From: a virus
Strand: one strand, 5' to 3'
DNA: 64,000 nt
IMG/VR virus record: IMGVR_UViG_3300048924_000619
Span: 30,138 to 94,137 of that record
Position 1 is the first letter of the stretch. Each line of letters begins with the position of its first letter. Below, piece after piece: positions 3,526-46,041 of the stretch. Made by a program: the position numbers and the translations under genes. A model generated the notes under the pieces. The model saw nothing but the letters and a program-made list of their open reading frames with translations. It was not told where the DNA came from and did no database searches.

Positions 3526-3618
3526 CCGCGCGGCCGCCGTGCTCGACAGAGGGAGTGGCGGCCGGCATCAGAATCAGTGGGAACGAGTCTGCCCGCCTGA
3601 AACCGCCGCGGCCGACCG

Positions 3619-3626: not shown

Positions 3627-3658
3627 CGGACGATGCGACCCGAACAAGGGAAGTACGC

Positions 3659-4120: not shown

Positions 4121-4127
4121 GTCCCAC

Positions 4128-4823
4128 ATGGCGGAGGCGTCCCCCGATCTGAAAGACCGGATCCTCGCGGAGATCGCGGCCCATGTGCGCGTCTACGGGC
4201 GCACGCAGTGGGACCGCGTCCGCGAGCGGCCGGAGTTCGCGCCCATCATCGGCAAGGAGTCCGGGGCCGGCGGCCGGCGGAAGTTCTTCCGCTGGGTCGA
4301 CGTGGTCTGCGCGCCCCGGCCGGATGACGCCGTCGGCGCCGGCCGGCCGCATGAGGGGCGGGACGTCGCCGCGGAGGCGCTGAGCGATGCGCAGCGGCGC
4401 GCGCTGCTCGCGGCCCAGAAGAACATCCCGGCCGCGCCGTCGCCGTCGTACATGATGCGCAAGGGTGCCCAGGCGGAAAACCAGATCAACTTCCTGGCGA
4501 TCGTGCACGAGCTGATGGCCGACGTCGGCAAGCTGCGCGGAATGTCCGTCGTCGCGGACGAGGCGGCGGCTGACGGCGAGCGGGTCAAGAATCCGCACCT
4601 GTTCGGCCAGGCGATCGACAAGCGGCTCCGCGTGATGGAGACCGCGCTGAAGGTCATGCAGGAAATCTGGGACCTGCAGTACCAGCAGCGGTTCTACGAC
4701 GAGATCACTGAGATCATCGTCACGGAGCTGGCGGCGATCCCTGACGTGCAGGAGCGCGTCATCCGGCGCCTCGCTGACCTGAACAACCGGCGGGGCATGA
4801 CGCTCTACGCCGAGCCGACCTGA
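4128..4823 (+). CDS. putative terminase small subunit
   Basis: 231 residues from ATG 4128, directly before and overlapping the large terminase (TGATG). The N-terminal 60 residues (ILAEIAAHVRVYGRTQWDRVRERPEF ...RKFFRWVDVV) look like a DNA-binding helical domain. The C-terminal part is a long alpha-helical region ending in repeated ITEIIVTELAAIPDVQERVIRRL, suited to oligomerisation. The assignment rests on position and architecture rather than a recognised family motif. Confidence 0.6.
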   Translation: MAEASPDLKDRILAEIAAHVRVYGRTQWDRVRERPEFAPIIGKESGAGGRRKFFRWVDVVCAPRPDDAVGAGRPHEGRDVAAEALSDAQRRALLAAQKNIPAAPSPSYMMRKGAQAENQINFLAIVHELMADVGKLRGMSVVADEAAADGERVKNPHLFGQAIDKRLRVMETALKVMQEIWDLQYQQRFYDEITEIIVTELAAIPDVQERVIRRLADLNNRRGMTLYAEPT

Positions 4824-6925
4824 TGGCGGGCCGGCCGCCGTCGCCATTCAACCGCCGCAAGCCGCGCCCGATCCCGCAAACGGACGCGCTGTCGGCGGCG
4901 ATCGCCCAGCTCGAGGCGCGCACCGGGCACAAGGTGACGCCGGACCAGAAGGCGATCCCGGACGGGATGACGTTCCGCCAGTGGTGCGAGAAGCTCGGGG
5001 CCGAGGGCCTCGAGGTGGACGGCAAGCCGTTCACGCTCCACGACCGGCCGGCGATGGCCTGGATCTACGACCAGATCCCGTCGACGGCGGACGAGGCCTA
5101 CAACCTCGTGCTCGTCCTGATGAAGTGCGCGCAGGTCGGGTTCACCGTCATGGAGATGCTGGCCACGGTCTACCTGGGGCTCAAGTTTGGGCCCTGCACG
5201 GTCGGCATGTTCCTGCCGGACATCAACTTGGCGGGCATGAAGTCAACTGAGCGCTTCATGCCCATCATCCGGTCGATTCCGGATGTGCACGCGCTGATGA
5301 CGCAGGACGCCGCCGACGGCTCCGGCAAGAAGCGGGGCGAGGGCAACGTCAACCGCCGGCGCATCGCCAAGGCCCTGTTCGTCTTCTCCTGGACGTCCGG
5401 CAAGGCGTCGACCGAGTCCGTCCCGATGGACATCCTCTCCTTCGACGAAGTGCAGGAGATGACGAAGGAGCAGCTGGAAAAGACCCAAGAGCGCCTGAGC
5501 GCCTCGCCGGTCCGCTTCACGCTGATGGGCTCGACGGCCAACTGGCCAGACGAAGACATCCACTTCTGGTACAAGAAGGGGTCGCAGCACCAGTTTCACA
5601 CCGAATGCCCGACGTGCCGGGTGAAGAAACCGCTCGACGACTATTTCCCGAGGTGCATCCAGTGGGATGCGGCGCGCCGGGTCTATCGCTACGTCTGCGA
5701 GGCCGGACATTGGATCGACGACCCTCAGATCGGCGAGTGGGTGGCCTTCAACGAGGAGGCTGACCCGGCGATCGACTACACGATCCCGAAGAAGCACTGG
5801 CCGAAGCGGATCCGGTCCATCCACTTCCCCCAGTTCCTGTCGCCGACGATCAGCGCCTCGGACATGATGACCGCCTACAACGAGGCGAGCGACCTCAAGA
5901 ACTACCACAACCGGAAGCTTGGGAAGCCGTTCCTCGACCCGACCGTCACGCCCGTGACGCTCGAGCATTGTGCGCGCGCCGTCGAGCTCGGCCGCGCCGC
6001 CGGCGTCCAGTGGAAGACTCGGGCGCGCGGGACCTTCATGGGCATCGACCAGATGGGCCAGTTCAACGTGCACATCATCAAGGAGCGCCTGCCCGACGGC
6101 CGCCAGGCCGTGATCCACTACGAGGAGACGTACGCGGAGGATCCGTTCGCACGCTCGAGCGAGCTCATGGAGGCCTACGGCGTCCAGGCCTGCGTCGTCG
6201 AGATCAACCCGAATTTCAACGACGCGCACAAATTCGCGAAGCGCCACCCGGGCAAGGTGTTCCTCTGCGACGGGTTCAAGGCGATCGAGGGCGACATGAT
6301 CGTCTGGGGCGACGGGCCGAAGCTCGACGTATCGGACCGGCGAACCGATGAGGACTCACGGACGCGCTACACGGTCAAGGCCGACCAGTACAAATGCATG
6401 CAGACGTCTCTCGCGCGCATCGTGAAGGGCCACTGCCTGTTCCCGGACCCGAAGGAGCTTATCCAGGAGGTCGTCGACAAGGGCGTTCGCCAGCTGGTGC
6501 CCATCCTGCCGCGGCTGTTCCTGCACTTCACGCGCACGGCGCTCGTCGCCGAGAAGGACAAGGAAACCAACAAGTACAAGCGCTCCGTCAAGAAGGTGGG
6601 GCTGGATCCACACGGTTCGTACGCTAACCAATTGTGCGACGTCGCCTGGGCGCGGGCCCACGGCACGGCGAGCTTCATCCTCCCGGAGACTGGCGACGTG
6701 GCAACTGATCAAGCTAAGCAATCTGCCGAAATGGGCATGGTCGGCCTTCCGAACCACGTCGTCAGCATGCTCAACGACCTGCCGCCTGGCGTCTGCGGCC
6801 GCTGCTCGGCCTATCCCTTCGGCGACGACAACGGGCCGCCGGCGCGCGGGATGTGCGCGGAGCGCGGGTTCGAGGTCGCCGCGGCGGATCCGGCCTGCCC
6901 GATGTTCGCGGCGGTCGAGGGCTAA
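4823..6925 (+). CDS. terminase large subunit, GpA family
   Basis: 700 residues. Packaging motor and nuclease of the lambda gpA type. The ATPase half has a deviant Walker A, KCAQVGFT (about 100-107), in the place used by the GpA family, and a Walker B with DE in LSFDEVQE (about 205-212). A Cys cluster (CPTCRVKK and CEAGHW, about 258-296) is typical of this family. The RNase-H-like nuclease begins at GIDQMGQFN (about 406), with further acidic residues at EINPNF and in the C-terminal third. The last 40 residues contain another Cys-rich stretch (CGRCSAYP, MCAERGF). Confidence 0.93.
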   Translation: MAGRPPSPFNRRKPRPIPQTDALSAAIAQLEARTGHKVTPDQKAIPDGMTFRQWCEKLGAEGLEVDGKPFTLHDRPAMAWIYDQIPSTADEAYNLVLVLMKCAQVGFTVMEMLATVYLGLKFGPCTVGMFLPDINLAGMKSTERFMPIIRSIPDVHALMTQDAADGSGKKRGEGNVNRRRIAKALFVFSWTSGKASTESVPMDILSFDEVQEMTKEQLEKTQERLSASPVRFTLMGSTANWPDEDIHFWYKKGSQHQFHTECPTCRVKKPLDDYFPRCIQWDAARRVYRYVCEAGHWIDDPQIGEWVAFNEEADPAIDYTIPKKHWPKRIRSIHFPQFLSPTISASDMMTAYNEASDLKNYHNRKLGKPFLDPTVTPVTLEHCARAVELGRAAGVQWKTRARGTFMGIDQMGQFNVHIIKERLPDGRQAVIHYEETYAEDPFARSSELMEAYGVQACVVEINPNFNDAHKFAKRHPGKVFLCDGFKAIEGDMIVWGDGPKLDVSDRRTDEDSRTRYTVKADQYKCMQTSLARIVKGHCLFPDPKELIQEVVDKGVRQLVPILPRLFLHFTRTALVAEKDKETNKYKRSVKKVGLDPHGSYANQLCDVAWARAHGTASFILPETGDVATDQAKQSAEMGMVGLPNHVVSMLNDLPPGVCGRCSAYPFGDDNGPPARGMCAERGFEVAAADPACPMFAAVEG

Positions 6926-24290: not shown

Positions 24291-27200
24291 ATGCTGCTGC
24301 TCCTGATGAAGGCCGATCAGCTCGGCCTGTTCGAAAAGCTCGTGCCCGTGAAGGCGAGCATCAGCTCGTCTGGCCGTCTGATCTCCGCGCACACGGCGAT
24401 CCGGCACGTCCGGCGCGTCGAGCCGACGAAGCGCCATGCCGAGGTGCTCGACCTCTTCGGACACGCGCCGCAGCCGAAGCCGGCCCTGGTCACGCCGAAG
24501 AAGCCCGCGCCGGCACCGCAGGCGGACCTGTTCGAGCATCGGCCGGATCCGCCGAAAGCCGACCTCAACGGCATGATGGCGCGGTCGCGCGATCAGCGCT
24601 TGGCGCGCGAGGCCAAGGCGAAGGAGATCGGTGCCGGCGTCGGGTCGGTCAAGCTGAAGCATGCTGACGGTCGCGCCGCGCTGCTTTCCCCGGATCTGCA
24701 ACGCGACGGCGGCTGGCGATTCACCCGCCTGGATGCCGACGGGCCGGTGGGCCACTCCGAGTACGACAGCAAGGAGGCCGCCGCTGCGGAGGCGCTGCGT
24801 GCCGGGTACTCAACCGACGCGCCGGAAGCGATCCAGCCGCACGCGCCGTTAGAACCGGCGGTCAGCCTCCAAAATCAATTACCCGCCTCCGGAATCGATT
24901 ACTCCGAGGGCCTGCCGGCCGAGCTTCCTGCTTTCGGCGTCGCGCCGGGGACGACCAAGGGCGAGCGACGGGCGATCAATGCGCTGGCCGCCTCAATGGT
25001 CAACGGCCGGAAGTCCCTGCTCGACGAGGCGCCGGCACCGGTCAATCCGGAGGTGCTCCGTCAATATTCGGGCTGGGGCGGCTGCGGCGACAGCCTGAAC
25101 GAGTTCTACACCGATCCGAACGTGGCCGCGGCCATGTGGTCCGTCCTCCATCGCATGGGCCTGGGGGAGGGCGCGAGCGTCCTGGAGCCGTCCTGCGGCA
25201 CGGGCGTCTTCCTCGAGCTGGCGCCGAAGGGCGTCAAGGTCACAGGAGTCGAGCTCGACGAAACCAGCTCCAAGATCGCGGCCACCCTGCACCCGACCCA
25301 CGAGGTGGTGAATTCCGCCCTCGAGGCTTTCGCGACGACCGACACGCGCCAGTTCGACGCGGTGATCGGCAACCCGCCGTTCGGCGATAGCCGTGGCTCC
25401 CTGGTTGCGGCCGACAAGCCGGACATCAGCCGGCCCGAGCAATATTTCGTCGATACCGCGCTGGACAAGGCGCGCGCCGGCGGCCTGGTCGCGCTCGTGC
25501 TGCCGACCGGGATCTTGGACAGTCGGTCTGCGCGCAAGCTGCGGGATCGCTGGATCCGCAAGGGCCAATTCCTCGGCGCCCTGCGCATGCCGAACACCGC
25601 GTTCGAGGCCAGCCACACGGGCGTGACCACGGACGTCGTGTTCTTCCGCAAGCGGCCAGACGAGGTCGCCGGCGCGCTGTCCGTGGTCGATCGCGACACC
25701 CTGAAACTGCTCGGCGCCTGGGACGAGGAATTCGTCGGCGGCGGCTACTTCAGCGGCCGCGGTGAGGGCAACATCCTTGGCACGCTGGAAGCCGGGTGGC
25801 GCTCCAAGGCCGGCATGGGCGACGACATCACCGTGGCAGGGTCGATGGTGGGCGTCCCGGAGGCGATCGCCAGCTTTGAGCCTGAACAGCCGTCGGGCCC
25901 GACGGGCGTGGAGGAGGTGCTCGGCGCCGTCCAGGACCAGGATCTGAAGGCTCGCATCCGCGGCGCGGCCGCGCGCAAGCCCTACGATCAGGCGAAGCGC
26001 GGCGACACCCGGGTCATCGACGGCGTGACGTACGTCCTGGAGGGCTCGCCGCTCCGCTGGCATCGCGTGGACGAGTTCATGGCGGAGCAGGCCGTCGTCG
26101 ACGCCGGCGCGCTCGGCGCCGACATCGAACGCGCGGTGCAGGGCGAAGACGTGCCCGGCCTGGCGGACCGCGTTCGCGCCTATGTCTCGGCGCACGGGAT
26201 CCCGGCGAAGAATCCGAACCTCGTCATAGCGGCAAAGCAGGACAAGGCGATATATCGCCTGCTCGGCGCCGTTAAGCAGGACGGCTCGCTCTCTGACGTT
26301 GTCGAGGGCCGTCGCGAGTCCGCCGCCGTCTCCAACTTTGACACGGCGGCGAAGACCCTCGCCCTGGAAGTCGGCTACTTCTCGCCCTCCATGGTCGCCG
26401 GCCGCTGGCATGGCGGGACCGAGGATGTGGTGCTCGACCACCTCTATGCCTCGCCAGACTATGCGATCGATCCGCGCAGCGGGACCTGGACGAGCCTCGA
26501 CCAGTACCTCTCCGGCGAGCTCTGGCCGAAGTACGACGACGCGAAAGCGGCGCTGGCCGAATCCGACTTGAAGCCGGAAGACCGGGCGAAGATCGAACGC
26601 CAGCTGGCCGCGCTGGACGAGGCGATTGCGCCGAAGTCGCTGGAGGACGTCGAGATCCAGGTGAATAGCGGCTTCGTGCCGCTGAACGTCGTGTCGGCTT
26701 TCTTCAACGAGGTCCACCCGTCGAGCTACGGCGACAAGACGCCGATGACCATCACCTATGACGAGGGCGTCTTCGCCGTCATGGGTGGCGGCTACGAGGC
26801 GCACACGCTGCGCAAGTACCTGAACCGCGACGGCGTGCGGAAGGACGACGATCTGCCGACGATCGAACGGTGGAACCGGGCATTCAAGGAGTGGCTCTGC
26901 GCCTCCGCCTATCGCGACGAGGTCGAGGAGCTCTACAACCGGAAATTCCGAGGCTTCCGCCAGAAGGCCTATTCGGAGGAAGCGTTCGAGGTTCCAGGCC
27001 TGCGGTCCGACGGCCTGAAGAGCTACCAGTGGAGCGGGCTGCGCTGGGCTCTGGAGGCCGGCAAGGGGATCATCGCGGCCGACGTTGGCCTGGGGAAGAC
27101 GGCCCGCGCGCTGATCCTCAACAAGCTGATGAAGATCACGGGGCAGGCCAAGCGCCCCATGATCGTGGTCCCGAAGTCCGTGGCGGCCAACTGGATGCGC

Positions 27201-30200
27201 GAGGCGGAGAAGTGGTTCCCCGGCTCGTCCGTCATGGTGATCGGCGAGACCTACAGCCGCGACAAGAACGGCGAGCTCAAGGGGCGTGGCGATACCGAGG
27301 CGGAGCGGAATCAGAAGTTCCACGACATCCGGCAGAACGACTACGACTTCATCCTGATCACGCAGCCGGCCTGGAATGCGCTCGACCTGGATCCGGAGAC
27401 CAAAGAAAAATACGCCAGCTCCGACTTCTGGGAGAAGCGGAAGGAAGGCCTGGGCAAGGGCCCGAGCGCCAAACAGCTCGCCCGCCAGAAGGAAGCCCAC
27501 GACGCCAAGATCGCGAAGCAGGACTTCCAAAGCCGCTCGGACGCGCTCTACTTCAATGACCTGGGCGTCGACGCCCTCATCTCCGACGAGATGCACGCCT
27601 ACAAGAACCTGTTCGAGGCGCGGGACCGCTTCGGCCAGCAACCGAAGTTCCTCGGCGGTTCGTCCAGCTCAAAGCGGGCGGCGGACATGCGCTGGAAGAC
27701 GGACTGGCTGCGCGACCAGACCGGCGGTCGCAACGTCTATGGCCTGACGGCCACGCCGACGAAGAATAGCCCGCTTGAGGTCTATTCGATGCTCTCGCAT
27801 ATCGCCCCTGAGGCGTTCCTGAACATCGGAATCCGGAACTCCGAAGACTTCCTCGACCGCTTCTGCGAGTTCAAGGAGGAGAACGTCCTGGACACGAATG
27901 GGCGGATGACCCGCTCGCTCTGCGTCAAGGGCTTCAAGAACCTGTCCGAGCTGCGCGAGATCATGCGCCGCTACATCGACCGGAAGACGGCTGAGGACGT
28001 CGGCCTGCAGCTGCCGGCGAAGGACGATCGGCAACACCTCGTCGATATCTCGGCCTCCCAGAAGGAAGTCTACGCCGAGTTGCGCGAGCTTGCGGAGAAG
28101 GCGAAGCAGGCCGGCAACGACGCCAGCGGCGAGGCGCACCCGTTCTCCATCATGCACAAGATGGACCGGGCGACGCTCGACCTGGAGCTCTACGACCCGG
28201 TCCGCTACGCTGGCGCCCGGTCGCCCAAGCTGGAGCAGGCCGTCACCAACATCACATCGGGCATCAAGGAAGGCGGCCAGATCGTCTTCTGCGACGCGAT
28301 CGAGACCCATGACAAGCTGGTCGGCCTCCTCGTCGCAGCGGGGATTCCCCGCGATCAGATCGGAGTCCTGAACGCCAAGGTCGCGCCCACCTCGGCCAAG
28401 CGCCAGAACATCGCGGAGGCCTACCGGGCGAAGAAGCTGCGCGTGGTCATCGGCAACTCGACGATGGAAGAGGGCGTCGATGGCCTGCAGGCCGACACGA
28501 CCGACATTCACCACCTCAACATCCCCTGGACGCCGGCGGCCATCCAGCAGCGGAACGGTCGCGGCCTTCGCCAGGGCAACACCGCAGAGGCCGTGCGCCT
28601 GCACAACTACCTCGCGAAGGGCACGTTCGACGGCTACCGCTATCAGACGATCTCGGCGAAGAAGGACTGGCAGACCCTCCTCTGGGACGGCGGCGACCGC
28701 GTTGAGAACCTCGCGTTCGAAGGCGGCATGAACCACGAGGAGATGTTGATCGCGCTCGCCGAGGATCCGGACAAGGCGCGCGAGGAGTTGACGAAGAACA
28801 AGGAGTTGGCGCAGGCCAAGCTCGACGCGCAACAGTACGCCGACGCGGCGGAAGCGTACCGGGCCTATCGGAAGATGCGCGCCAGCCTCAAGAAGCTGGA
28901 CGCGGGCTCGCGCGCCAAGGCCTCGGGCCAGCGCCTCGAGCACAAGCTGAGCATGATGCGGACCTCGCTGGAGGCGAACCCGTACTTCAAAGCCAAATCC
29001 GCGATCGACGCCGACCATGAAATCATGATCGCGCCGGGGTCTGGCGACGCCATCGCGCCTGGCGCGGGCCTCGACGTGCCGCCCGAGGGCAAGATCACCA
29101 CGGGCAGATATGTGGTCGAGAAGGTGTCGCCGGATCACGGTTGGGTTGAGCTGCGGCGCTGGGGCGAAACCGGGAAGGCCGGGCGCATGCTCGTCGATCT
29201 GGCCGACCTCTCCCACGCGAAGGTGACGGAGCACGACAAGGCGGCGGAGGACGCGCACATCACGGCGAAGACGGCTGAGGTGCTCGCGGCCGGCGCCAAG
29301 GATCTCGACAGCTACAAGAAGCTGCGGGAGTTCCCGTCGGCGGCGATCGAGGCCAACCGGGAAGCGATCAGCCACACGGTCAAGCGCGGCCTGAAGGAAT
29401 ACAAATTCCGCGACGGCTACGAGGCGCGGATCGGGATCATCCGGCCAGAGGGCGCGCGAGCGCTGCCGAGTTACGAGGCCGGCAAGCTGACGGACGCCGA
29501 CCTGCCCATGCTGCCGATCGACGAGCACAAGAAGCTCGCGTTCGACGCCTACGCTGCGGACGAGGCCGGCAAGAAGTTCACGAAGGTGCCCGAGACCGGT
29601 CGCCGCGGCGCCTCCACGGGGCGGTATCGCGATGAGCTGCGCTACCCGGGCGACCACTATAACGGCGAGACGAAGAACCGCTGGGCGAGCGTGATCGAGA
29701 ATCTCTGGGGCCCGGAGGGGTTGTCGGAGGCCCACCGCCAGTTTGAGTCTCGGCAAATGGAGGCCGCGCGCCGCGCACCGGACTTGAAGACGGCGATCGC
29801 CCACGCCCTGCCGACATCCATCCGGAAGGAAGGCTACATGCCGACGGTGAAGAGCAAGTGGGGCCGCAAGGCCTTGGCCACGCTCTACGCGAAGGCGAAG
29901 GCTGGCGGCCACCTGCGTACGCCGCTGCTCGACCACCTGGAGACCAAGGAGGTGCGTCAGGGCTACGGGCTCAGTGAGCGCCGCTACCAGACGCCAGTCG
30001 TCAGCGAGGATCACTTCTCCGATGGACGCACCTACGGATCCGTCGTCAAGGAGCCGGTCGGCTCGGCCCTTGCCAAGCTCGCCGTCGCCAACGGTCACGT
30101 CGACCTTGCATCGGCCATGGCCGTCGATCACGCCGAGACGCCGGAAGAGGCCATGTCCAACCTTGGCCGGCTGCCCGAGCACCCGGCGCGCGAGGACGCC

Positions 30201-30266
30201 AAGCGCCACCTGATCGCCAAGCATCCTCACCTGGGCCAACTCGAGGAGGCGCCGCGTGCAGCCTGA
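24291..30266 (+). CDS. DarB-like polyvalent protein: N6-adenine methyltransferase plus SNF2-type helicase
   Basis: 1991 residues. Residues about 290-450 form a class I methyltransferase: SAM-binding LEPSCGTGVFLE (about 298) and catalytic NPPF (about 360). Residues about 900-1450 form a superfamily 2 helicase: Walker A ADVGLGKTA (about 928-936), DEMHAYKN in the DEAD/H place (about 1099), TATPTKNS motif III, and C-terminal QQRNGRGLRQGN (about 1420). The rest is helical. Same layout as P1 DarB, an antirestriction protein injected with the DNA. Long size and place in the head block support a virion-carried role that shields entering DNA. Confidence 0.85.
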   Translation: MLLLLMKADQLGLFEKLVPVKASISSSGRLISAHTAIRHVRRVEPTKRHAEVLDLFGHAPQPKPALVTPKKPAPAPQADLFEHRPDPPKADLNGMMARSRDQRLAREAKAKEIGAGVGSVKLKHADGRAALLSPDLQRDGGWRFTRLDADGPVGHSEYDSKEAAAAEALRAGYSTDAPEAIQPHAPLEPAVSLQNQLPASGIDYSEGLPAELPAFGVAPGTTKGERRAINALAASMVNGRKSLLDEAPAPVNPEVLRQYSGWGGCGDSLNEFYTDPNVAAAMWSVLHRMGLGEGASVLEPSCGTGVFLELAPKGVKVTGVELDETSSKIAATLHPTHEVVNSALEAFATTDTRQFDAVIGNPPFGDSRGSLVAADKPDISRPEQYFVDTALDKARAGGLVALVLPTGILDSRSARKLRDRWIRKGQFLGALRMPNTAFEASHTGVTTDVVFFRKRPDEVAGALSVVDRDTLKLLGAWDEEFVGGGYFSGRGEGNILGTLEAGWRSKAGMGDDITVAGSMVGVPEAIASFEPEQPSGPTGVEEVLGAVQDQDLKARIRGAAARKPYDQAKRGDTRVIDGVTYVLEGSPLRWHRVDEFMAEQAVVDAGALGADIERAVQGEDVPGLADRVRAYVSAHGIPAKNPNLVIAAKQDKAIYRLLGAVKQDGSLSDVVEGRRESAAVSNFDTAAKTLALEVGYFSPSMVAGRWHGGTEDVVLDHLYASPDYAIDPRSGTWTSLDQYLSGELWPKYDDAKAALAESDLKPEDRAKIERQLAALDEAIAPKSLEDVEIQVNSGFVPLNVVSAFFNEVHPSSYGDKTPMTITYDEGVFAVMGGGYEAHTLRKYLNRDGVRKDDDLPTIERWNRAFKEWLCASAYRDEVEELYNRKFRGFRQKAYSEEAFEVPGLRSDGLKSYQWSGLRWALEAGKGIIAADVGLGKTARALILNKLMKITGQAKRPMIVVPKSVAANWMREAEKWFPGSSVMVIGETYSRDKNGELKGRGDTEAERNQKFHDIRQNDYDFILITQPAWNALDLDPETKEKYASSDFWEKRKEGLGKGPSAKQLARQKEAHDAKIAKQDFQSRSDALYFNDLGVDALISDEMHAYKNLFEARDRFGQQPKFLGGSSSSKRAADMRWKTDWLRDQTGGRNVYGLTATPTKNSPLEVYSMLSHIAPEAFLNIGIRNSEDFLDRFCEFKEENVLDTNGRMTRSLCVKGFKNLSELREIMRRYIDRKTAEDVGLQLPAKDDRQHLVDISASQKEVYAELRELAEKAKQAGNDASGEAHPFSIMHKMDRATLDLELYDPVRYAGARSPKLEQAVTNITSGIKEGGQIVFCDAIETHDKLVGLLVAAGIPRDQIGVLNAKVAPTSAKRQNIAEAYRAKKLRVVIGNSTMEEGVDGLQADTTDIHHLNIPWTPAAIQQRNGRGLRQGNTAEAVRLHNYLAKGTFDGYRYQTISAKKDWQTLLWDGGDRVENLAFEGGMNHEEMLIALAEDPDKAREELTKNKELAQAKLDAQQYADAAEAYRAYRKMRASLKKLDAGSRAKASGQRLEHKLSMMRTSLEANPYFKAKSAIDADHEIMIAPGSGDAIAPGAGLDVPPEGKITTGRYVVEKVSPDHGWVELRRWGETGKAGRMLVDLADLSHAKVTEHDKAAEDAHITAKTAEVLAAGAKDLDSYKKLREFPSAAIEANREAISHTVKRGLKEYKFRDGYEARIGIIRPEGARALPSYEAGKLTDADLPMLPIDEHKKLAFDAYAADEAGKKFTKVPETGRRGASTGRYRDELRYPGDHYNGETKNRWASVIENLWGPEGLSEAHRQFESRQMEAARRAPDLKTAIAHALPTSIRKEGYMPTVKSKWGRKALATLYAKAKAGGHLRTPLLDHLETKEVRQGYGLSERRYQTPVVSEDHFSDGRTYGSVVKEPVGSALAKLAVANGHVDLASAMAVDHAETPEEAMSNLGRLPEHPAREDAKRHLIAKHPHLGQLEEAPRAA

Positions 30267-30635: not shown

Positions 30636-33600
30636 ATGCTTCAGAAGCCGCGCGTCATTCTGTTCGCCAGCACGGCGATGCTGAAAGCGACGGCGGCCGG
30701 CGAACGGTGGGTCACGGTCCACCCGCACGGCCCTGACTCCAAGGGTCAGCCGATACTGATCCAGCCACAGCCGGACGGCTCGGCCAAGGTAATCGGCGGC
30801 GCCGGCGGATCGCTGAACCATATGCGGCTCACCGGGATCAAACCGAAGACGGAATACACCGAGACCCTCAAGGAGCGCGCGCGGGACCGCCGCGCCGCCC
30901 GGAAGCGACAGCGGGACCGTGACAAGGCGCTCGGTCTGCAGCAGGCCAAAGCCGACGCGCACAAGAAGGTCACGGAGAAGACCCAGGCCGCGCAGAGGGA
31001 TTTCGTGAGCGGCGTCGCGCAGGCGATGGGTTGGGCGCCGGAGGACTATAAGTTCCAGCCGCCAGAGGGGCAGGCTGACCACGTCGTCGCGAAGATGCAC
31101 GCGGCCCACCTGAAGGAGATGGTGAAGCGCGCCGAAGCCGCGGTGAAGCTGAACCGTGAGCGCATCCTGGCCGACGCGTCGACCCGCGCGCACGAGGAGC
31201 TCGGCGAAGTCCCGCTGGACTCCGAGGATGCGAACACCCTGTCCGTTCAGGATCTCGACCCGGTCAGGACGGCCCCGCTCGGGCTGGGCTTCGCGACGGA
31301 ATACAAGGCCCGCGCGGAGGCCAACGGCGCCGACGAGGCGGCCATCAAGGGCGAGGCCGCCGAGAACAGGCGCGAGCAGACGGAGGCCCAACGCAAGGCC
31401 GCCGTCCAGAACGGCGAGACCGCGCGGCTCGTCGCCGAAAACGTCGCCCTCCTGCGCGAGCCAGATCAGGTCGAGAAGCTCGCGCCCAAGCTAGTCGAGG
31501 CGAAACAGGCGCTCGACCTCTTGAAGCTGGAGAAGAAGCGCAAGATGGCGGAGCGCCAGGCCAAGCAGGCGCGTAAGCAGATCGACGACGCGATCGAGGC
31601 GCCCAAGGCCTATATCGTCGAGGTGGACGATGCGAAGGTCGACGCGAAGGTGGCGGAGGACGTCGCCAACGACCTTCGCACGATCTCCACGCGCGCCTTC
31701 CTGTCAGAGGTCGAGAAGACGGTCCCGGACGCGGCCGTCACGCTGCGCCGTCACGTGGGCGCCGGCGCGTACAATTCGGTCAACGCCCTGGCCCTGGCCG
31801 CCGGCGGCGCGGCGCTCGTCGACCGTAGCGTCGTGGATGTCCTGGGCATCGCCGGCGCGGCGGAGGTACTCGCCCGGCGGCTGCACGCCGATCTGACGCC
31901 CGACGAACTGCGCGACGTCTCCGAGGGCATGACCGCCTATCACCTCCATCATTACATGGAGGCGTCGGAGGAGGCGATCGGCCGGGCCCGTGAGCTTCAG
32001 GCGCAGGCGCGCGAGATGGAACTCGGCGCCGCGGAGAACGGTGAGGATCTCGCGGCGCTCCAGGAAATCAACCGCCAGCGCGGCGCGGCGCTGGGCGAGT
32101 CCCGAAAGGTGCTGGGCACGGCGCTGGGCGAGATGGAGGCGAACGCCGCGCTCGTCTATGCGCTCGGCCGCGGAAAGTCCGAGAAGCCGTTCGTCGTCCC
32201 GCTCGGCGACGTGTCGATGGAGTCGGCGATCGCGCAGGTTCGGGCCATCGGCCTCCAGCGCGGCGATTATTCGATCGAGACCGCCGCGGGCAACCGTGTG
32301 CTCAAAGTGAACCCACAGGGCCTTGACCGCTTGGCTGCGCCGGTCAACCGGGCCGACCTGGAGCAGGTGCGGCGCAACCTCGACATCATTTCCGGACGGT
32401 TCGACGAAGACGATTGGATGCCGCAAGGCATTTCGGACCGGCCGGACCTGGATATGAAGGCCAAGCCGGGCGTCGCTCCGCAGCTGGCCGAACCGTTCGC
32501 GCCGGGCGCTGACCTGGAGGCGTCCGTCCGCGACTACATTGGCGGGCGGGCGGCCGACGGCGACGCGCCGGCGGACATCGTGGCCGACCTGCAGTCGGCT
32601 GATTTCATGCGCAAGGTCGGCGCGGACCGCGTCGATGACTACCGCGCGGCGCTGGATCGGCTGGCCCCGCTGGCCGACGACAAGGGCAACCTCCGCCAGC
32701 CGGAGGCCCTGCGGCCATCGTTCGAGGAGATGGCCGACGCCTTCGCCAGCGCCCGCGGCGCCGTCGAGCCGCTCCATCGCCAGAACTTCCACGTCGATGA
32801 AACCTCGATCGACGCGTTGCACCGCGCGCTCACGTCGGAGCCGACAGGCGTGGCCGCCTACAAGCCGGTCGGTGAGTTGACGCCGCAGGATCAGGGCGCG
32901 CTGCGGGACTTTTTCGCCAAGCACGTCGCGAAGGAATCGCCGGAAGTGGCTGGCCACCGCGCGGAGCTGGGCAAGCTGGAGGCCAGGGAGCCGGAGCGCC
33001 ACGTCGAGGATATGTTCGGCGAGCAGGCGACGAATCCGGAGTGGTCGGATTGGCGCAACCGGCGCGACGAACTGCGCGGCCATGTGAACGCCGGGTCGAT
33101 GACCTGGGCGAAGTATGTGGAGGCGATGCGCTCGCCGCAGGCGGCCTACGCGGCGACGCAGGATCTTGTCCGGAGCCAGATCACGCGCGGTTTCGCGGAC
33201 GCCTACAATACCCTGAAGCCGGCCTCACCGCTGAAGGTCGGTCGCTCGGTCATCCGCTCGAACCTTGACCACCTGGACGCGGTCGATCCGGCCGCCCGGG
33301 ACGCGCGCCTCGCGAAAGAGCGGGCGCTGTCGGACTCGCTGCGCAATCGCGTTGCTGGTCGGTATGCCTCCGGTTCGGTGCGCGACCGGCTTGACGCTGC
33401 GCGTGAGGAGCAAGCAGGCCTCGAGGCGGCGCAGATGGGCTTCTTCGCGGACGAGCCCGCGCCGGCGACGGAGAAGCCCCTCGGTGGCGATGAGCGCTGG
33501 ACGATCGGCCACGAGGCGGAGCGCCGCATTGCGGAAATGATGCCGCAGGTCGGCGCCAACTTCCGGCCCGGCCAGCCTGTGCACCTCTTCCGGCCGTCGA

Positions 33601-35165
33601 TGAGCGGCGGGAAGAATTACCCGCGCCAGCGCGCGATCAAGATGCTCGAGGCGAACAAGCGCGTCGTGCTCTCGTTCGGCACAGGCTCCGGCAAGACGTT
33701 GATCGGCCTCGGCGGGTTCACGCAGCTGCACTCCAAGGGTGCCGTGAAGCGCGGGCTGTTCCTGGTCCCGTCGATCGCGCAGGGTGGCTTCGGGGCGGAG
33801 TCGCTGCGCTTCCTGAAGCCAGGCGCGTACCGCTGGCATGCCAAGCCGGGCGCGTCGCGTTCAGAGCGGATCGCCGCATACAAGGATCCGTCGCACCACT
33901 TCTGCGTCATGACCCACCAGTCGTTCCGCGACGACATGCTCCACCTCGGCGCTCAACATGCAGGCGTCCCGGAATCCGAGTTGTCGGCCAAGGTGGCGAC
34001 GATGTCCCGCGCCGAGCGCAAGGACTGGATCAAGGGCGTCATGCGGCGCGAGGGGATCGCCTTCGACTACCTGAACGTCGACGAGGGCCACGACACGCTG
34101 AACCGCCGGGGCAAGGAGAACTCGGCGATGTCGAACGTGATCGACGCGCTCGGCGACCACACGCCCTATTACGTGAATGCCAGCGCCGACCCGATCAAGA
34201 ACGACGTCTCCGAGGCCTTCTCGCTTCTGCAGAAGATGGATCCGGAGCGCTACACTGACGAAGGCGCCTTCATGCGGCGCTATGGCGTCGACACGCTGGA
34301 TGCCAAGGACGGCCTCCGGCGCGAGCTGGCGCGCTTCCAGTATCCGTCGAAGATCGACCCGGACATCACGGCGAACCGGGTCGAGCGCAAGGTTTCGGTT
34401 TCGGACGCCCAGCACAAGGCGCTGAGCGAGCTCGACGGCCACATGGCGAACGCTCGGATCGCGCGCATGCAGGGCAAGGTCGACGTCTCCGCCGTGAAGG
34501 CGATCAGCCCCTCGTCGTTCGAGGGGGTGCCGCCGGCGGAGCACGAGGCCATCGCGCGGGATCTCCAGGCGAACCTGGGGATCCTGAAGCAAACGGCCGT
34601 GCGTCGGCTGCTCGACGCGCACCCGGAAAGCGCCAAGGTCGGCGACGTGCTCAAGGTCGCCGCCGAGCGCAAGGGCAAGCAGGGCGTCGTCTTCGCCCAC
34701 TCCCTCGAGGCGGTCGAGGCGATCAAGTCGCGGTTGGCCAGCGAGGGCTTTCGGGTCGGCACGATCACGGGCAAGGACTCGGCCAAGGATAAGGCCAAGC
34801 GGATCGGCGAATTCCGGCCGGCGTCCGGCGCCGCGGCGATCGACGTCATGGTTTGCTCAGATGCCGGCGCTACGGGGGCGAACCTGCAGTCCGGCCAATG
34901 GCTCGTGAACTACGACACCCCGGACACGGCGAAGACGCACGCGCAGCGGAACGGGCGGATCAACCGCATCGGGCAGACGCAGGACGTCGACCTGATCGAC
35001 CTCGTCTCTGACCACCCGGAAGAACGCCGTCGGCGCGACCGGCTGGAGAAGAAGTATGCGCTGCGTGAGATGATGACGACGCCCATGGAGAGCCTCGACG
35101 ACACGGGCCTGGCGTATTTTCTCCGCCAGCGCCAGATCATGCGGGATAACGGTGCGCCCCGGTAG
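30636..35165 (+). CDS. giant protein with C-terminal SNF2-type helicase
   Basis: 1509 residues. Residues 1-950 are helical and highly charged, with long Lys/Glu/Ala heptads near 70-130 and 220-330, and no recognised enzyme. Residues about 990-1480 are a superfamily 2 helicase: Walker A FGTGSGKTLIG (about 1012), DEGH box in NVDEGHDTLN (about 1148), NASADPIKN as motif III, and RNGRINRIGQTQDVD motif VI (about 1440). It is a second, diverged relative of the helicase half of the DarB-like protein, without a methylase. Probably also an ejected or DNA-protecting protein. Confidence 0.75.
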   Translation: MLQKPRVILFASTAMLKATAAGERWVTVHPHGPDSKGQPILIQPQPDGSAKVIGGAGGSLNHMRLTGIKPKTEYTETLKERARDRRAARKRQRDRDKALGLQQAKADAHKKVTEKTQAAQRDFVSGVAQAMGWAPEDYKFQPPEGQADHVVAKMHAAHLKEMVKRAEAAVKLNRERILADASTRAHEELGEVPLDSEDANTLSVQDLDPVRTAPLGLGFATEYKARAEANGADEAAIKGEAAENRREQTEAQRKAAVQNGETARLVAENVALLREPDQVEKLAPKLVEAKQALDLLKLEKKRKMAERQAKQARKQIDDAIEAPKAYIVEVDDAKVDAKVAEDVANDLRTISTRAFLSEVEKTVPDAAVTLRRHVGAGAYNSVNALALAAGGAALVDRSVVDVLGIAGAAEVLARRLHADLTPDELRDVSEGMTAYHLHHYMEASEEAIGRARELQAQAREMELGAAENGEDLAALQEINRQRGAALGESRKVLGTALGEMEANAALVYALGRGKSEKPFVVPLGDVSMESAIAQVRAIGLQRGDYSIETAAGNRVLKVNPQGLDRLAAPVNRADLEQVRRNLDIISGRFDEDDWMPQGISDRPDLDMKAKPGVAPQLAEPFAPGADLEASVRDYIGGRAADGDAPADIVADLQSADFMRKVGADRVDDYRAALDRLAPLADDKGNLRQPEALRPSFEEMADAFASARGAVEPLHRQNFHVDETSIDALHRALTSEPTGVAAYKPVGELTPQDQGALRDFFAKHVAKESPEVAGHRAELGKLEAREPERHVEDMFGEQATNPEWSDWRNRRDELRGHVNAGSMTWAKYVEAMRSPQAAYAATQDLVRSQITRGFADAYNTLKPASPLKVGRSVIRSNLDHLDAVDPAARDARLAKERALSDSLRNRVAGRYASGSVRDRLDAAREEQAGLEAAQMGFFADEPAPATEKPLGGDERWTIGHEAERRIAEMMPQVGANFRPGQPVHLFRPSMSGGKNYPRQRAIKMLEANKRVVLSFGTGSGKTLIGLGGFTQLHSKGAVKRGLFLVPSIAQGGFGAESLRFLKPGAYRWHAKPGASRSERIAAYKDPSHHFCVMTHQSFRDDMLHLGAQHAGVPESELSAKVATMSRAERKDWIKGVMRREGIAFDYLNVDEGHDTLNRRGKENSAMSNVIDALGDHTPYYVNASADPIKNDVSEAFSLLQKMDPERYTDEGAFMRRYGVDTLDAKDGLRRELARFQYPSKIDPDITANRVERKVSVSDAQHKALSELDGHMANARIARMQGKVDVSAVKAISPSSFEGVPPAEHEAIARDLQANLGILKQTAVRRLLDAHPESAKVGDVLKVAAERKGKQGVVFAHSLEAVEAIKSRLASEGFRVGTITGKDSAKDKAKRIGEFRPASGAAAIDVMVCSDAGATGANLQSGQWLVNYDTPDTAKTHAQRNGRINRIGQTQDVDLIDLVSDHPEERRRRDRLEKKYALREMMTTPMESLDDTGLAYFLRQRQIMRDNGAPR

Positions 35166-36792: not shown

Positions 36793-37707
36793 ATGGTCGA
36801 AAGCGACGCCGCATTGATGGATGCATGCCCGGACTTCGTGTCCGTGGGCTCGCTTCTGAAGGCGCATCCTCAGGAGGATGGTGGTCGACGCTTCGTTTAC
36901 TTCGAAGCCTCGAACGAAGGTCTGGACCAGCAGGATGAGGTGATCCTGTCGAAGGCCCTGGCGGACTCGAAGGACTTCTACCTCCGCTACGGCAACGTCG
37001 ACATCGACCACTACACCCAGATCGGCGCGCGCGCCGGCATCCCGGACTATCCGACGTATGAGATCGGACAGCCGGTCGAGGTCGGCCAGCGCGGCGGATC
37101 CACCTTCGTCAAGAGCCAGCTCTACGCCGCGACCTCGGACAAGATCTCCACGCCGATGCTGGAGAAGGCGAACATGGTCTGGGACGGCCTGACCAAGGTC
37201 GACCCTCCCCAGCGCTGGTATCCGAGCGTCGGCGGCGCCGTCCTGCAGAAGGCTATCCACGTTGACGAGGCGACGCAGGCGCGTCGCGCCGTCATCTCCA
37301 AGGTGCGCTGGTCCAACGTCGGGCTCTCGCGGACGCCCGTGAACCAGCACGTCAGCGCTTGCGCGGCGGCGCCGATCGGCATGTTCGCCAAGTGCCTCGC
37401 GGCGCAGGGTGTGATCGATTTCTCAAAGACCCTGACGGCCGGCTACGGCACGGACTCCGCCACGCTGTCGGGCGGTGCGTCGCTGCGCCAGCAATCGCTC
37501 GACGGCGGCGTCAAGAGCTACTGGGATTTCCGCGAGCGCCTGGCTCAGGCGATGCGCGAAGGAACGGCGGGAAAGAACCCCAAGTCCGCGGACTTGGTGC
37601 GGTTCGCCGCCGAGAGGTTCGGGCTCTCTCACGATGAGGCGGCCGAATACGTGGAGCGCTTCGTGCGCGACCTCCAATCCGGACTGACAAAGAGGAAAGC
37701 GGCATGA
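36793..37707 (+). CDS. putative prohead (head maturation) protease
   Basis: 304 residues, first of the protease-scaffold-capsid triplet. RRFVYFEASNEGLDQQDEVI, DIDHYTQ with a candidate catalytic His, and RWYPSVGG with a candidate Ser fit S78-type phage proteases. Residues about 213-236 (LTAGYGTD...LRQQSLD) nearly repeat the N-terminal arm of the major capsid protein, 17 of 24 identical. The C-terminal helix RFAAERFGLSHDEAAEYVERF resembles an assembly domain. It overlaps the scaffold gene by 4 nt. Confidence 0.65.
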   Translation: MVESDAALMDACPDFVSVGSLLKAHPQEDGGRRFVYFEASNEGLDQQDEVILSKALADSKDFYLRYGNVDIDHYTQIGARAGIPDYPTYEIGQPVEVGQRGGSTFVKSQLYAATSDKISTPMLEKANMVWDGLTKVDPPQRWYPSVGGAVLQKAIHVDEATQARRAVISKVRWSNVGLSRTPVNQHVSACAAAPIGMFAKCLAAQGVIDFSKTLTAGYGTDSATLSGGASLRQQSLDGGVKSYWDFRERLAQAMREGTAGKNPKSADLVRFAAERFGLSHDEAAEYVERFVRDLQSGLTKRKAA

Positions 37708-38324
37708 GCGCTGAAAAGACGGCGGGGTCCTTCGACGCCCTGCTCGAGGAAATCTCGACCGACCTGACGAAGGCGCTGCCGACCGACGGCGACACGAAGG
37801 AAGACGACGCCAAGATCGAGGCCGCCGCGGCCGACGGTGAGGGCGAAGAAGACAAGGAAGACGGCGAAGCCGCGCCCATGGCGAAGTCCTTCAAGATCAC
37901 CCTCCAAAATGGCGAGGAGATCGATGCCGTTGACGGCGCCGAGCTGGTCAAGTCGCTCGTCGCCCGCATCGAAAGCAACGAGACGGGCATCCTCAAGGTG
38001 CTCGGCGAGACCGCGAAGATCGCCATCGCTCAAGGCGAGCTGATCAAGTCGCTGCAGACCCGTCTCGGCACCCTGGAAGGCCAGGGCAAGGGCCGCAAGG
38101 CCGTCCTGACCATCGCCGAGAAGCCCGCCGCCGCGGCCGAGGAACTGCGCAAGTCGCAGGAAACCCACGGCTTGGACGGGGACGCGTTCATGGCCAAGGC
38201 CCTGTCCGCCCAAGTCGCCGGCCGGATCAACGGCACGCAGGTCGCCATCGCCGAGGCGCACATCAACGCCGGCAAGCAGCCGCCCGCCGACATCGTCCGC
38301 GCCGTCCTCCCGGACGCCCAGTAA
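37704..38324 (+). CDS. putative scaffolding protein
   Basis: 206 residues. Acidic N-terminal half (DGDTKEDDAKIEAAAADGEG), then a long helical region with TGILKVLGETAKIAIAQGELIKSLQTRLGTLEG, and a C-terminal helix-turn-helix-like tail typical of scaffolds that bind the capsid shell. Position between protease and major capsid gene is the main evidence. No catalytic motif. Confidence 0.65.
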   Translation: MSAEKTAGSFDALLEEISTDLTKALPTDGDTKEDDAKIEAAAADGEGEEDKEDGEAAPMAKSFKITLQNGEEIDAVDGAELVKSLVARIESNETGILKVLGETAKIAIAQGELIKSLQTRLGTLEGQGKGRKAVLTIAEKPAAAAEELRKSQETHGLDGDAFMAKALSAQVAGRINGTQVAIAEAHINAGKQPPADIVRAVLPDAQ

Positions 38325-38384
38325 CCGCACTCCGCGAGCCGCCGCCCACGTCGGTCTCGTCCACAAGCAGAGGGTAAGGATCCC

Positions 38385-39839
38385 ATGAATATCAACCTCG
38401 ACGTGGCCCTGAACGCCACCGCGGGCGGCGTTGCGGACGCGTCCGTGATCGACGAACTGCAAAAGGCCCTGACGGCCGGCTATGGCACGGACGTGTCGCA
38501 GCTGACCGGCGGCTCGGCCCTGCGCATCCAGTCGCTCGACAAGACCATGAAGTCGACGATCCAGGAGAACGAGCACTTCGTTCTCTTCAACGCGCTGGCC
38601 AAGTCCGGCGCCGGCGCGACCGTCGACGAATGGACCGAGCGGACCGACGTCGGCAGCTTCCCGGGCGGCTCGACCAACTCGGAAACCGGCGTCATCTCTC
38701 AGGCGCAGGGCAACTACAAGCGGCGCGTCGGCCTGGTCAAGTACCTGATGACCCAGGCCCAAGTGTCGCTGGTCGCGACCCTCGGCAACAACATCGAGGC
38801 GGCGAAGGCCGTCGAAGCCCAAGCCGCCGCCCTGCGGCTGCTGACCGACGCCGAATATCTCAGCTTCGAAGGCGACTCCACCGTCGTCCCGACCGAGTTC
38901 GACGGCATCGCCGCTCAGATGTACGCCGGCGTGGCCGACGGTTCGGTCGATGGCGGCAACGTCATCAACGTCGACGGCTCCTCGCTGGCCTCGATCAACG
39001 CCGTCAACCAAGCCGCCGCTCAGATCTCCTCGTACGGCAACTGGGGCCGGGCGAGCGACCTGTTCTTCTCGCAGCAGGTCCAGGCGGACTTCGACAACGG
39101 CCTGGACCCGGCCTTCCGGGTCGCGTTGAACAACGTCGGCGACGGCGGCCTGAAGCTCGGCGCCCCCGTGGTCGGCATCCGCACCAGCCACGGCAACATC
39201 AAGACGAACAACGACACGTTCATCTTCGATGAGCCGCGGCAGATGCCGTTCGACGTGCTGTTCCCGGCCGTCGCGACCGCCCTCACGTCCCTGAAGCCGG
39301 CCTCCGTGACCGCCGCGGCCACGACGGGCACGACCGCGAACAAGTTCACCGCCGCTCGCGCGGGGAACTACTACTACCTCGTCGCGGGCGTGAGCGCCGC
39401 CGGCCAGTCTGACGGTCGGGTCACCACCCAAACCGCCGTCGCGGCCGGTCAGAAGGTCACTCTGACCATCACCGCGTCGGCGGGCGCTCAGGAAACTGGC
39501 TATGCGATCTATCGCGGCCGCCTGAACGGGACCAACGCTCCGTCGGACATGCGCCTGATCAAGCGCGTGGCGAAGGCCGGCGCGACGACCACGTTCGTGG
39601 ACGAGAACCTCGACATCCCCGGCACCTCCAAGGGCTACATGCTCCCGATGGGGCCGGGCGCCGATGCGATCTCGTGGCGCCAGCTGCTGCCGATGATGGA
39701 GTTCCAGCTCTATCCGACCAACGCGCCGGTCCTGCCCTGGGCTCAGCTCCTGTTCGGCTATCTGCGGATGACCAAGCGCCGCCGGGTCGTGGTGTTCAAG
39801 AACATCCTGCCCAGCTCGTCGCTCTGGAAGCCGTTCTAG
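38385..39839 (+). CDS. major capsid protein (SU10-like) with Ig-like insertion
   Basis: 484 residues. HK97-fold capsid subunit of the SU10/DUF5309 type. N-terminal arm residues 1-55 include LTAGYGTDVSQLTGGSALRIQSLD, the segment copied in the upstream protease. The E-loop/P-domain region starts near SFPGGSTNSETGV. Residues about 300-410 form an extra beta domain (ANKFTAARAGNYYYLVAGVSAAGQSD, ETGYAIYRGR), FN3/Ig-like, presumably exposed on the head surface. The end (LPWAQLLFGYLRMTKRRRVVVFKNI) is the usual capsid C-terminal strand. Ribosome site AAGGA. Confidence 0.85.
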   Translation: MNINLDVALNATAGGVADASVIDELQKALTAGYGTDVSQLTGGSALRIQSLDKTMKSTIQENEHFVLFNALAKSGAGATVDEWTERTDVGSFPGGSTNSETGVISQAQGNYKRRVGLVKYLMTQAQVSLVATLGNNIEAAKAVEAQAAALRLLTDAEYLSFEGDSTVVPTEFDGIAAQMYAGVADGSVDGGNVINVDGSSLASINAVNQAAAQISSYGNWGRASDLFFSQQVQADFDNGLDPAFRVALNNVGDGGLKLGAPVVGIRTSHGNIKTNNDTFIFDEPRQMPFDVLFPAVATALTSLKPASVTAAATTGTTANKFTAARAGNYYYLVAGVSAAGQSDGRVTTQTAVAAGQKVTLTITASAGAQETGYAIYRGRLNGTNAPSDMRLIKRVAKAGATTTFVDENLDIPGTSKGYMLPMGPGADAISWRQLLPMMEFQLYPTNAPVLPWAQLLFGYLRMTKRRRVVVFKNILPSSSLWKPF

Positions 39840-44304: not shown

Positions 44305-46041
44305 ATGACCGGATATTTCTTCAACGGCCGGCAGAACATCACGCCGCAGGCGATGACCCACGTGAACGACGGGGCCATGCTTCCGGCCGCGCCGAGCGTT
44401 GGCAACTTCGCGGCGCTGATCGGCCACTCCACGGGCGGCGCGCCCGGCGTGGTTCTGAAGTTCGGATCCCCGGATGACGCCCGCTCGGTGCTGGCCAGCG
44501 GAGAGCTGCTCGACGGCGTGATCCGCGCCTTTGCGCCCTCCGCCGAAACCGGCGGCCCGGATGCCGTGATCGCCGTGCGCGTCGATCCGGCGACGCCGGC
44601 GACCCTGGCGTTGAAGGACTCCATCGCCGCCACGGTCATCAACCTGACGTCGACCAATTACGGTCTGCGCGAAAATCAGATCAAGGTGAAGGTCGAGGCG
44701 GCCACCGGCGGCCGCGGCCTGAAGATCACCACGCAGCGGGGGTCGTCCTACTACACGCAGGACAACATCTTCCGGAACGCGTTCAGCGTCCAATACAGCG
44801 GCGCCCAGGCCTCGGCCGTGGCGCAGATCTCCCAGTCGCAGGTTGTCCTTCAGGCGCCGTCCGGCTCGACGGTCGCGACCATCGACCTGAACACCTTCCA
44901 GACCATCCAGCAGCTCGTGGACCGCATCAACGCCACTGCGGGCTTCTCTGCGGCGGTCCTGGACGGCAACGGCTCCAAGAAGGCGCTCGACGGCCTGGAC
45001 ACGGTGGCGGCGCAGGACGTCAAGACCGCGGTCTACAACGCCCGCGCCGATCTGCAGGCCGTGGTCGACTGGTTCAACACCTCGGGCGAGCCCTACGTGA
45101 CCGCGGCGCGCGCGGCGAGCGTCGGTACGCTGCCCGCGCCGGCGGCGTTCACCTACCTGTCTGGCGGCATCGACGGCACGTCGACGAATACCGAGTGGTC
45201 GAACGCCTTCTCCGCGCTGCAAACGGCCGATGTGCAGTGGATCACTCCGCTCACCTCGGACCCGGCGGTCCACGCGATGGCTGACGCGCACGTGCAGTTC
45301 ATGTCCGACCAGGGCCGCAAGGAACGTCGGGCGATCTGCGGCGGCCCGCTGGCGACCTCCGACGCCACGGCGATTACGCTGGCCAAGGGTCTGAACTCGG
45401 ACCGCACCAGCTTCGTGCACCTCGGCGTCTACGACTATGACGTGCTGGGCGATGGCTCGCTGAAGCTCTACCCGCCCTACATGGCGGCCGCGATGATCTC
45501 CGGCGCTTTTGCCGGCGTCACGCCCGGCACGGCGCTGACTGGCGTCTCGCTGAGCGTGGTCGGTGCCGAGCGGACCCTCCGCAACCCGGTGGATACCGAT
45601 GGTCTTCTGCAGGGCGGCGTCCTGCCGATCGAGGACACAGCGACCGGCGTCCGTGTCACGCAGTCGATCTCCACGTGGCTGACCGACGGCAAGTTCAACC
45701 GTCGCGAACAGTCGACCGGCGCCGCACTGGACTTCGCCTGTCGCTTCATTCGCGAACGGGTCGAGACGGCGGTGAAGGGCAAGAAGGGCTCGCCGCAGAT
45801 GCTCTCGGTCGCGATTACGACCATGGAGACCTGCTGCAAGGAGCTCGCGAAGCCCGAGGAGCTCGGTGGACTCGGTGTGCTGGCCGGCGACGCGGCGAAC
45901 CCGGCTTACATGGGCCTCAAGGCGTCGCTGAACGGCGACGTTCTGGCGCTCGTGGGCCAGCTCTCGCCGGTCATTCCGATCAACTACATCCCGATCACGA
46001 TCAACGCCGTCCCGTACTCGGGCACGGCCTCGATCGGCTAA
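44305..46041 (+). CDS. tail sheath protein
   Basis: 578 residues. The contractile sheath subunit. GNFAALIGHSTGGAP near 30-45 and SPDDARSVLASGELLDGVIRAFAPS are the usual opening of phage sheath proteins. The middle has VTAARAASVGTLPAPAAFTYLSGG and DVQWITPLTSDPAVHAMADAHVQFMS. The C-terminal region with RQVTQSISTWLTDGKFNRREQ, VAITTMETCCKELA and the closing INYIPITINAVPY is the conserved hand-shake domain. This gene shows that the phage is a myovirus. Confidence 0.92.
   Translation: MTGYFFNGRQNITPQAMTHVNDGAMLPAAPSVGNFAALIGHSTGGAPGVVLKFGSPDDARSVLASGELLDGVIRAFAPSAETGGPDAVIAVRVDPATPATLALKDSIAATVINLTSTNYGLRENQIKVKVEAATGGRGLKITTQRGSSYYTQDNIFRNAFSVQYSGAQASAVAQISQSQVVLQAPSGSTVATIDLNTFQTIQQLVDRINATAGFSAAVLDGNGSKKALDGLDTVAAQDVKTAVYNARADLQAVVDWFNTSGEPYVTAARAASVGTLPAPAAFTYLSGGIDGTSTNTEWSNAFSALQTADVQWITPLTSDPAVHAMADAHVQFMSDQGRKERRAICGGPLATSDATAITLAKGLNSDRTSFVHLGVYDYDVLGDGSLKLYPPYMAAAMISGAFAGVTPGTALTGVSLSVVGAERTLRNPVDTDGLLQGGVLPIEDTATGVRVTQSISTWLTDGKFNRREQSTGAALDFACRFIRERVETAVKGKKGSPQMLSVAITTMETCCKELAKPEELGGLGVLAGDAANPAYMGLKASLNGDVLALVGQLSPVIPINYIPITINAVPYSGTASIG

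Follow-up and report, generated by a model that had tools for sequence, protein, structure and literature searches.

A copy of the capsid N-arm in the tail of a myophage prohead protease suggests an enzyme disguised so as to join the growing shell

In herpesviruses, the maturation protease UL26 is tied to a capsid-binding tail via self-cleaved sites, protease and scaffold being made as one polypeptide, and in phage HK97 the gp4 protease cuts at the base of the N-arm of the gp5 capsid protein. Prohead proteases with self-cleaved C-termini and protease tails that bind capsids are both known kinds. Giant-phage prohead proteases process their own C-termini, according to the sections of PMC10052503 and PMC5694885 considered here, and the latter states that the relevance of C-terminal autoprocessing is still to be resolved. 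A protease tail bearing a copy of the arm of the capsid protein itself, as described below, appears to be new. Our search of the open literature returned no description of a shared protease-capsid arm and no paper behind PDB entries 9row or 9vel; most of the subscription literature on SPO1, Twort and A511 lay outside its scope, so that priority is uncertain.

The window, the whole stretch of 64,000 nucleotides analysed here, corresponds to bases 30138-94137 of an IMG/VR record of 94,137 bases. It holds a myophage head module with protease, scaffold-like ORF, major capsid protein and tail sheath (44305-46041). Protease and scaffold are separate ORFs in this phage, and the protease gene lies immediately 5' of the scaffold and capsid genes. 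The features referred to below are the following (window positions; an arrow marks a cut):

36793-37707, plus strand: prohead (head maturation) protease, 304 aa (phrog_1028, E=1.7e-37)
36859-36864, plus strand: predicted N-terminal autocleavage site Lys23↓Ala24 (SLLK↓AHP), Lys23 invariant in 71 proteases
37390-37395, plus strand: predicted second autocleavage site Lys200↓Cys201 (MFAK↓CLA), Lys200 invariant in 71 proteases
37426-37431, plus strand: predicted arm-proximal cleavage site Lys212↓Thr213, equivalent of the capsid site, Lys212 invariant in 71 proteases
37429-37503, plus strand: capsid-arm copy in the protease, residues 213-237 (17/24 identity, hhalign, AF2)
37513-37701, plus strand: small helical C-terminal domain of the protease, residues 241-303 (AF2 pLDDT about 96)
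37704-38324, plus strand: scaffold-like protein with several K[S/A] sites, between the protease and capsid genes
38385-39839, plus strand: major capsid protein, 484 aa (phrog_752, E=2.9e-87)
38385-38465, plus strand: capsid propeptide, residues 1-27, putatively removed after Lys27 (homology to the start of the 9row chain)
38466-38540, plus strand: capsid N-arm, residues 28-52, template of the copy (match to protease; AF2)

The capsid protein belongs by sequence to the phrog_752 (Herelleviridae-type) major capsid family and matched PDB entries 5lii, 9vel and 9row with E about 1e-26 to 1e-25; Pfam held no family for it or for the protease core. The AF2 model of the protease consisted of a confident core (about residues 31-190) and the helical C-domain (241-303), with the arm unstructured between them. 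Foldseek placed herpesvirus assemblins and T4 gp21 at the top of the matches to this model (probability 0.90-1.00, best E 1.5e-3), and the catalytic-type residues His73 and Ser145 were invariant in 71 homologues. The C-domain profile showed a weak HU/IHF-like helical-hairpin resemblance (IHF, E=0.0076) and a match to PF18175 (E=0.03) that fails the Pfam cut-off, while a Pfam scan of the protease alignment gave weak and mixed matches (HU-CCDC81; PqqD in other members). This domain may be a dimerisation or DNA-binding module.

A sequence-only reading of this DNA had reported that a stretch of the capsid arm recurs inside the protease, and this was confirmed: residues 214-237 of the protease agree with residues 29-52 of the capsid protein at 17 of 24 positions. 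The start at residue 29 of the capsid protein was given correctly, whereas the protease copy of LTAGYGTD begins at residue 214 and not at about 213. The DNA CCCTGACGGCCGGCTA[C/T]GGCACGGAC agrees, as claimed, at 25 of 26 nucleotides with one mismatch, and a search of the 94,137-bp record for the 16-mer, with up to 2 mismatches allowed, gave these two sites and no others. The Smith-Waterman score reached 102, whereas none of 2000 shuffles scored above 66 (Gumbel p about 2e-7). Scored against the capsid arm, the protease reached 99 and the best of the 231 other window ORFs of at least 120 aa reached 43. A 40-aa arm query found two places only in its own genome, the protease with E=1.3e-8, and no third copy. 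Shuffles, scores of other ORFs and the own-genome search together ruled out a chance likeness.

The copy is not a peculiarity of this phage. Relatives of the protease were found by tblastn in 30 phage records and relatives of the capsid protein in 590; an HMM screen of regions from 14 reference phages and of loci from IMG/VR and GTDB genomes left 191 non-identical protease/capsid pairs. With a joint profile, the capsid arm was detected in the protease of all 191 pairs, between the catalytic core and the C-terminal helical domain, in Herelleviridae (SPO1, Twort), Gram-negative myophages of ~90 kb, Thermus phages and Bacteroidota-type contigs, the last label being taken from Bacteroides phages among the capsid matches and not from contig-by-contig assignment. 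A profile built from capsid arms alone, used against circularity, still recovered 182 of the 191 protease tails below 1e-3 and 157 below 1e-6, with shuffled tails scoring no better than 0.44. Its weak matches came mainly from one Thermus sub-clade (L009, L191-L195, L197), in which the protease segment retains K↓A and has lost most of its likeness to the capsid arm. Every related group thus contained relatives with similar segments, this sub-clade excepted; its drift means that mimicry is not indispensable everywhere, and it constitutes a natural test case for the role of mimicry.

Searches against PDB gave the same picture from the protease side. Queried with the SPO1 protease, the database gave 9vel, the capsid chain of SPO1 (E=2.4e-6); queried with the Twort protease, it gave 5lii (E=4.9e-8) and 9row (7.6e-6), both of them staphylococcal capsid chains. 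In each case the arm segment alone produced the match. When the two families were compared by hhalign, 29 columns aligned in the Gram-negative clade (E=1.4e-17), and in the other pairs, most of them from Herelleviridae, profile-profile comparison found 49 columns in common (E about 1e-17). Example pairs are TAGDPHALDPKSGLTGVPAIRRESLE and TAGDPHALDFKAGLSGVPAIRLESLE in Thermus phage Cumys and TPDTQVDAGALRRES and TPDTQVDAGALRREI in Twort. No other kind of ORF in the collected loci carried the arm; it does appear in two ORFs that the protease and capsid HMMs left unmatched (L118, L130), both of them apparently protease tails cut short by the start of a contig. In five Bacteroidota-type contigs (L233, L236, L239, L242, L245; about 3400-4900), a single ORF of ~500 aa directly 5' of the capsid gene spans protease, arm, helical domain and scaffold, and its scaffold part has a possible internal start. 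The arm stays between core and scaffold even in these fusions.

The arm is preceded by a candidate cleavage site. Lys fills the column just before it in 180 of the 183 proteases that have a residue there, and in 186 of 187 capsid proteins; the residue after this Lys is Ala, Ser, Thr or Gly. In PDB 9row, the mature capsid chain of a Staphylococcus phage (439 residues; also 9rox, 9roz) starts at the S of VVK↓SFQTGYG, whereas the 5lii entry is the full 463-residue precursor. Since the 9row chain starts right after this Lys, the near-invariant Lys very likely marks the capsid maturation cut. By homology, the capsid protein of the window phage would be cut after Lys27, a residue that is invariant across 54 capsid proteins. 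In SPO1, the predicted cuts fall in LDK↓SLEAGYEVD of gp3.2 and LNK↓ALEAGHTVN of gp6.1. In the 71-protease alignment, lysines 23, 200 and 212 were invariant alongside His73 and Ser145, among other residues; each of the three is followed by a small residue, and they look like three self-cleavage sites of the protease. An hxK[SATGC] site was present within the first 40 aa of 115 of 123 proteases (20% after shuffling) and a pre-arm site in 112 of 123 (34% after shuffling). The scaffold-equivalent ORFs (n=117) contained on average 7.2 hxK[SA] motifs per protein as compared to 1.4 when shuffled, and Ser followed Lys in them 3.7 times more often than expected.

Similar motifs were also seen elsewhere in the window. 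Two giant ORFs 5' of the protease, 24291-30266 (DarB-like methyltransferase/helicase) and 30636-35165 (helicase), have hxK↓A near their N-termini (LMKADQ, AMLKATAAG), as does the helicase of a relative, L007 (RLMIKASIP); these are probable capsid-targeting propeptides of packaged proteins. Open frames starting near 19186 and 21633 carry hxK[SA] within their first 90 codons (MVKSTN, IYKAIG), and the second of these resembles YIYKSTHDH, the start of a protein adjoining the portal gene in L005.

Comparison of the two arms across relatives, which the sequence-only reading had proposed as a check, was positive: both arms vary together within genomes. Protease and capsid arms of the same genome were identical at a mean of 0.675, as compared to 0.32 among protease arms of distant genomes; paralogues of the arm inside one genome are more alike than its orthologues between distant genomes. 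With similarity of capsid body and protease core controlled for, the two arms correlated at 0.47 in a partial Mantel test (p=5e-4, the smallest value that 2000 permutations allow). For each column, we further took disjoint nearest genome pairs with differing capsid arms. In informative cases, the residue of the protease agreed with its own capsid 221 times and with the swapped one 46 times (p=1e-28), and among close relatives (capsid body >60% identical) 79 and 36 times (p=7.5e-5); columns and pairs are not fully independent, so both p-values are indicative. The partial correlation of the protease arm was 0.43 with the capsid body and 0.07 with the protease core. The adjoining C-domain of the protease, used as a control, behaved in the opposite way (core 0.43, capsid body 0.28, capsid arm 0.04). 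Subsampling to equal length gave 0.41 for the arm with the capsid body and 0.17 with the protease core, a residual link to the core. This contrast argues that the protease arm has the capsid protein as its partner, and not the substrate site of the protease itself.

Taken together, our data suggest an enzyme that carries a capsid-arm disguise in its tail and takes its place in the growing shell with it. We give a probability of roughly 55% to the reading that the segment combines the capsid maturation site with the N-arm released there, and that its second copy in the protease tail docks the protease on the capsid lattice. The protease would be laid out as a short propeptide, Lys23↓, a herpesvirus/T4-gp21-like core, Lys200↓, a linker, Lys212↓, the arm copy and the small helical domain. 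It would cut after Lys in hydrophobic-x-Lys↓Ser/Ala/Thr of the capsid protein, the scaffold and itself, a step for which the conserved sites give strong support; self-cleavage at Lys212, Lys23 and Lys200 is likewise strongly supported by inference. Before that cut, the arm copy, held by the helical domain, may bind the capsid surface meant for the N-arm of a neighbour and so probably dock the protease on the lattice as a stand-in N-arm. In this way the prohead would incorporate a few proteases alongside its hundreds of capsid subunits. A self-cut after Lys212, Lys200 or both would then free the catalytic core to act inside the shell and leave a fragment of arm and helical domain, with an N-terminus of the mature-capsid kind, which may stay on the lattice. 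The stricter version, in which the protease impersonates a capsid subunit, its arm filling the arm groove of the neighbours, perhaps at sites left empty such as around the portal, and both arms co-evolving to the same groove, is more tentative and in our estimate falls somewhat short of an even chance. AF2 monomer models gave pLDDT <50 at protease residues 205-222 and 231-235 and at capsid residues 23-41 and 43-58, as expected for peptides that order on a partner only, and both arms look like such peptides in these models. Protease peptides are listed for purified virions of relatives in the sections of PMC5618024, PMC12282133, PMC6563214 and PMC3601020 considered here, which do not distinguish core from tail peptides; virion protease of this kind is compatible with a retained tail and not specific for one. 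The authors of PMC5618024 and PMC12282133 ascribe it, in those sections, to residual enzyme.

Other roles for the segment have to be weighed against docking on the lattice. It could be a cleavage signal only, an extended recognition sequence read by the active site and an exosite, by which the protease cuts its own tail without binding the capsid. The near-invariant P1 Lys and small P1' residue in both proteins are in line with this, as are the enrichment of hxK[SA] in scaffolds and at the protease N-terminus and the 64-residue C-terminal propeptide that SPN3US gp245 cuts off itself, as given in the sections of PMC10052503 considered here. However, the other predicted sites in protease and scaffold have the short motif only, without an arm, and the arms track the capsid body and not the protease core, the supposed reader of such a signal. 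The likeness also extends about 25-45 residues past the cut, beyond what protease subsites need, so cleavage alone is insufficient. The earlier suggestion of a shared cleavage site therefore stands as far as the Lys and the 9row start just after it are concerned, but the shared part is too long for it to be the whole explanation, and we consider a pure cleavage signal unlikely. Another possibility is that the arm copy imitates a cleavage product, occupies the active site or its vicinity and so blocks protease activity up to completion of the prohead. Synthesis as a precursor is common among viral maturation proteases, and the copy does directly follow a predicted self-cleavage site. Against this, the arm was unstructured in the AF2 model, with no confident placement, and it did not co-vary with the catalytic core once capsid relatedness was removed (the 0.07 given above); both tests are weak, the former because AF2 may miss a placement. 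The self-inhibiting mimic of the sequence-only reading thus gained no support from either, and zymogen inhibition seems to us quite improbable.

The likeness might, finally, have no function and be due to recurrent gene conversion, or be left over from an ancient duplication or a former protease-capsid fusion gene. The co-variation pattern is in itself also compatible with gene conversion in which the capsid copy overwrites the protease copy, since the protease arm would then likewise track the capsid. Where residues are identical, codon identity was indeed slightly raised within genomes (0.50 as compared to 0.45 with the three nearest relatives, p=4e-5), and the window genome was among the four highest of 121, with 16 of 19 codons (p about 0.007, uncorrected). 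A value of only 0.50, however, indicates no recent homogenisation in most genomes: codons agreed at 849 of 1694 positions where 760.6 were expected from codon usage, a 1.12-fold excess as compared to 1.07-fold in the cross-genome control. With this slight own-genome excess at synonymous sites, gene conversion was rejected as the main cause. Conversion may happen occasionally, but it leaves the family-wide pattern unexplained, and a recent conversion, as the sequence-only reading had considered, cannot explain a trait of every related group. A functionless relic would not have been kept, with a near-invariant Lys, in phages of Bacillota, Pseudomonadota, Thermus and Bacteroidota. We regard an origin of this sort without function as highly improbable.

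Docking through a copied arm, if true, would be a recruitment principle distinct from recruitment by scaffold tails or delta domains, in phages of about four bacterial phyla. It would address two open points, how the protease enters the prohead and what purpose the C-terminal processing of giant-phage proteases serves. The arm copy predicts three self-cleavage sites and offers sequence-based recognition of protease-capsid pairs, and the co-variation of the arms in SPO1, Twort-type phages and their allies makes the mechanism directly testable in established systems. Head assembly in this group is also of practical interest since some of its phages are used in therapy.

Compared to known systems, the window phage combines familiar parts in its own way. 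HK97 gp5 has a delta domain of roughly 100 residues and no separate scaffold, whereas here a propeptide of 27 residues goes with the scaffold ORF at 37704-38324. The protease-scaffold fusion of herpesvirus UL26 recurs in the Bacteroidota-type contigs, but not in the window phage; moreover, the herpesvirus tail is the capsid-binding end of the scaffold, whereas the tail described here copies the N-arm of the capsid protein itself. The proteases of T4 (gp21), SPN3US (gp245) and phiKZ share the herpesvirus-assemblin-like core, and T4 gp21 was among the top PDB matches. They cut after Glu (A-x-E in SPN3US), unlike the hxK↓S/A of the window phage, and no capsid-arm copy is mentioned for them in the sections of their literature considered here. 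T4 capsid-targeting sequences are, in the sections of PMC5694885 considered here, short N-terminal propeptides that carry proteins into the prohead and are removed by the protease. Those sequences make up the non-primed side of the cut, whereas the arm copy corresponds to the primed side, which stays with the capsid after the cut. A further described counterpart is the head module of Herelleviridae (SPO1 gp3.2/gp3.3/gp6.1, Twort). The window phage differs from these in the size of its record (94 kb as compared to about 126-162 kb) and shares about 25-28% identity in the head module, Bordetella phage PHB04 and its allies being nearer (53-57%), but gene order, homologous protease and capsid protein, and the arm copy itself are as in the phage described here.
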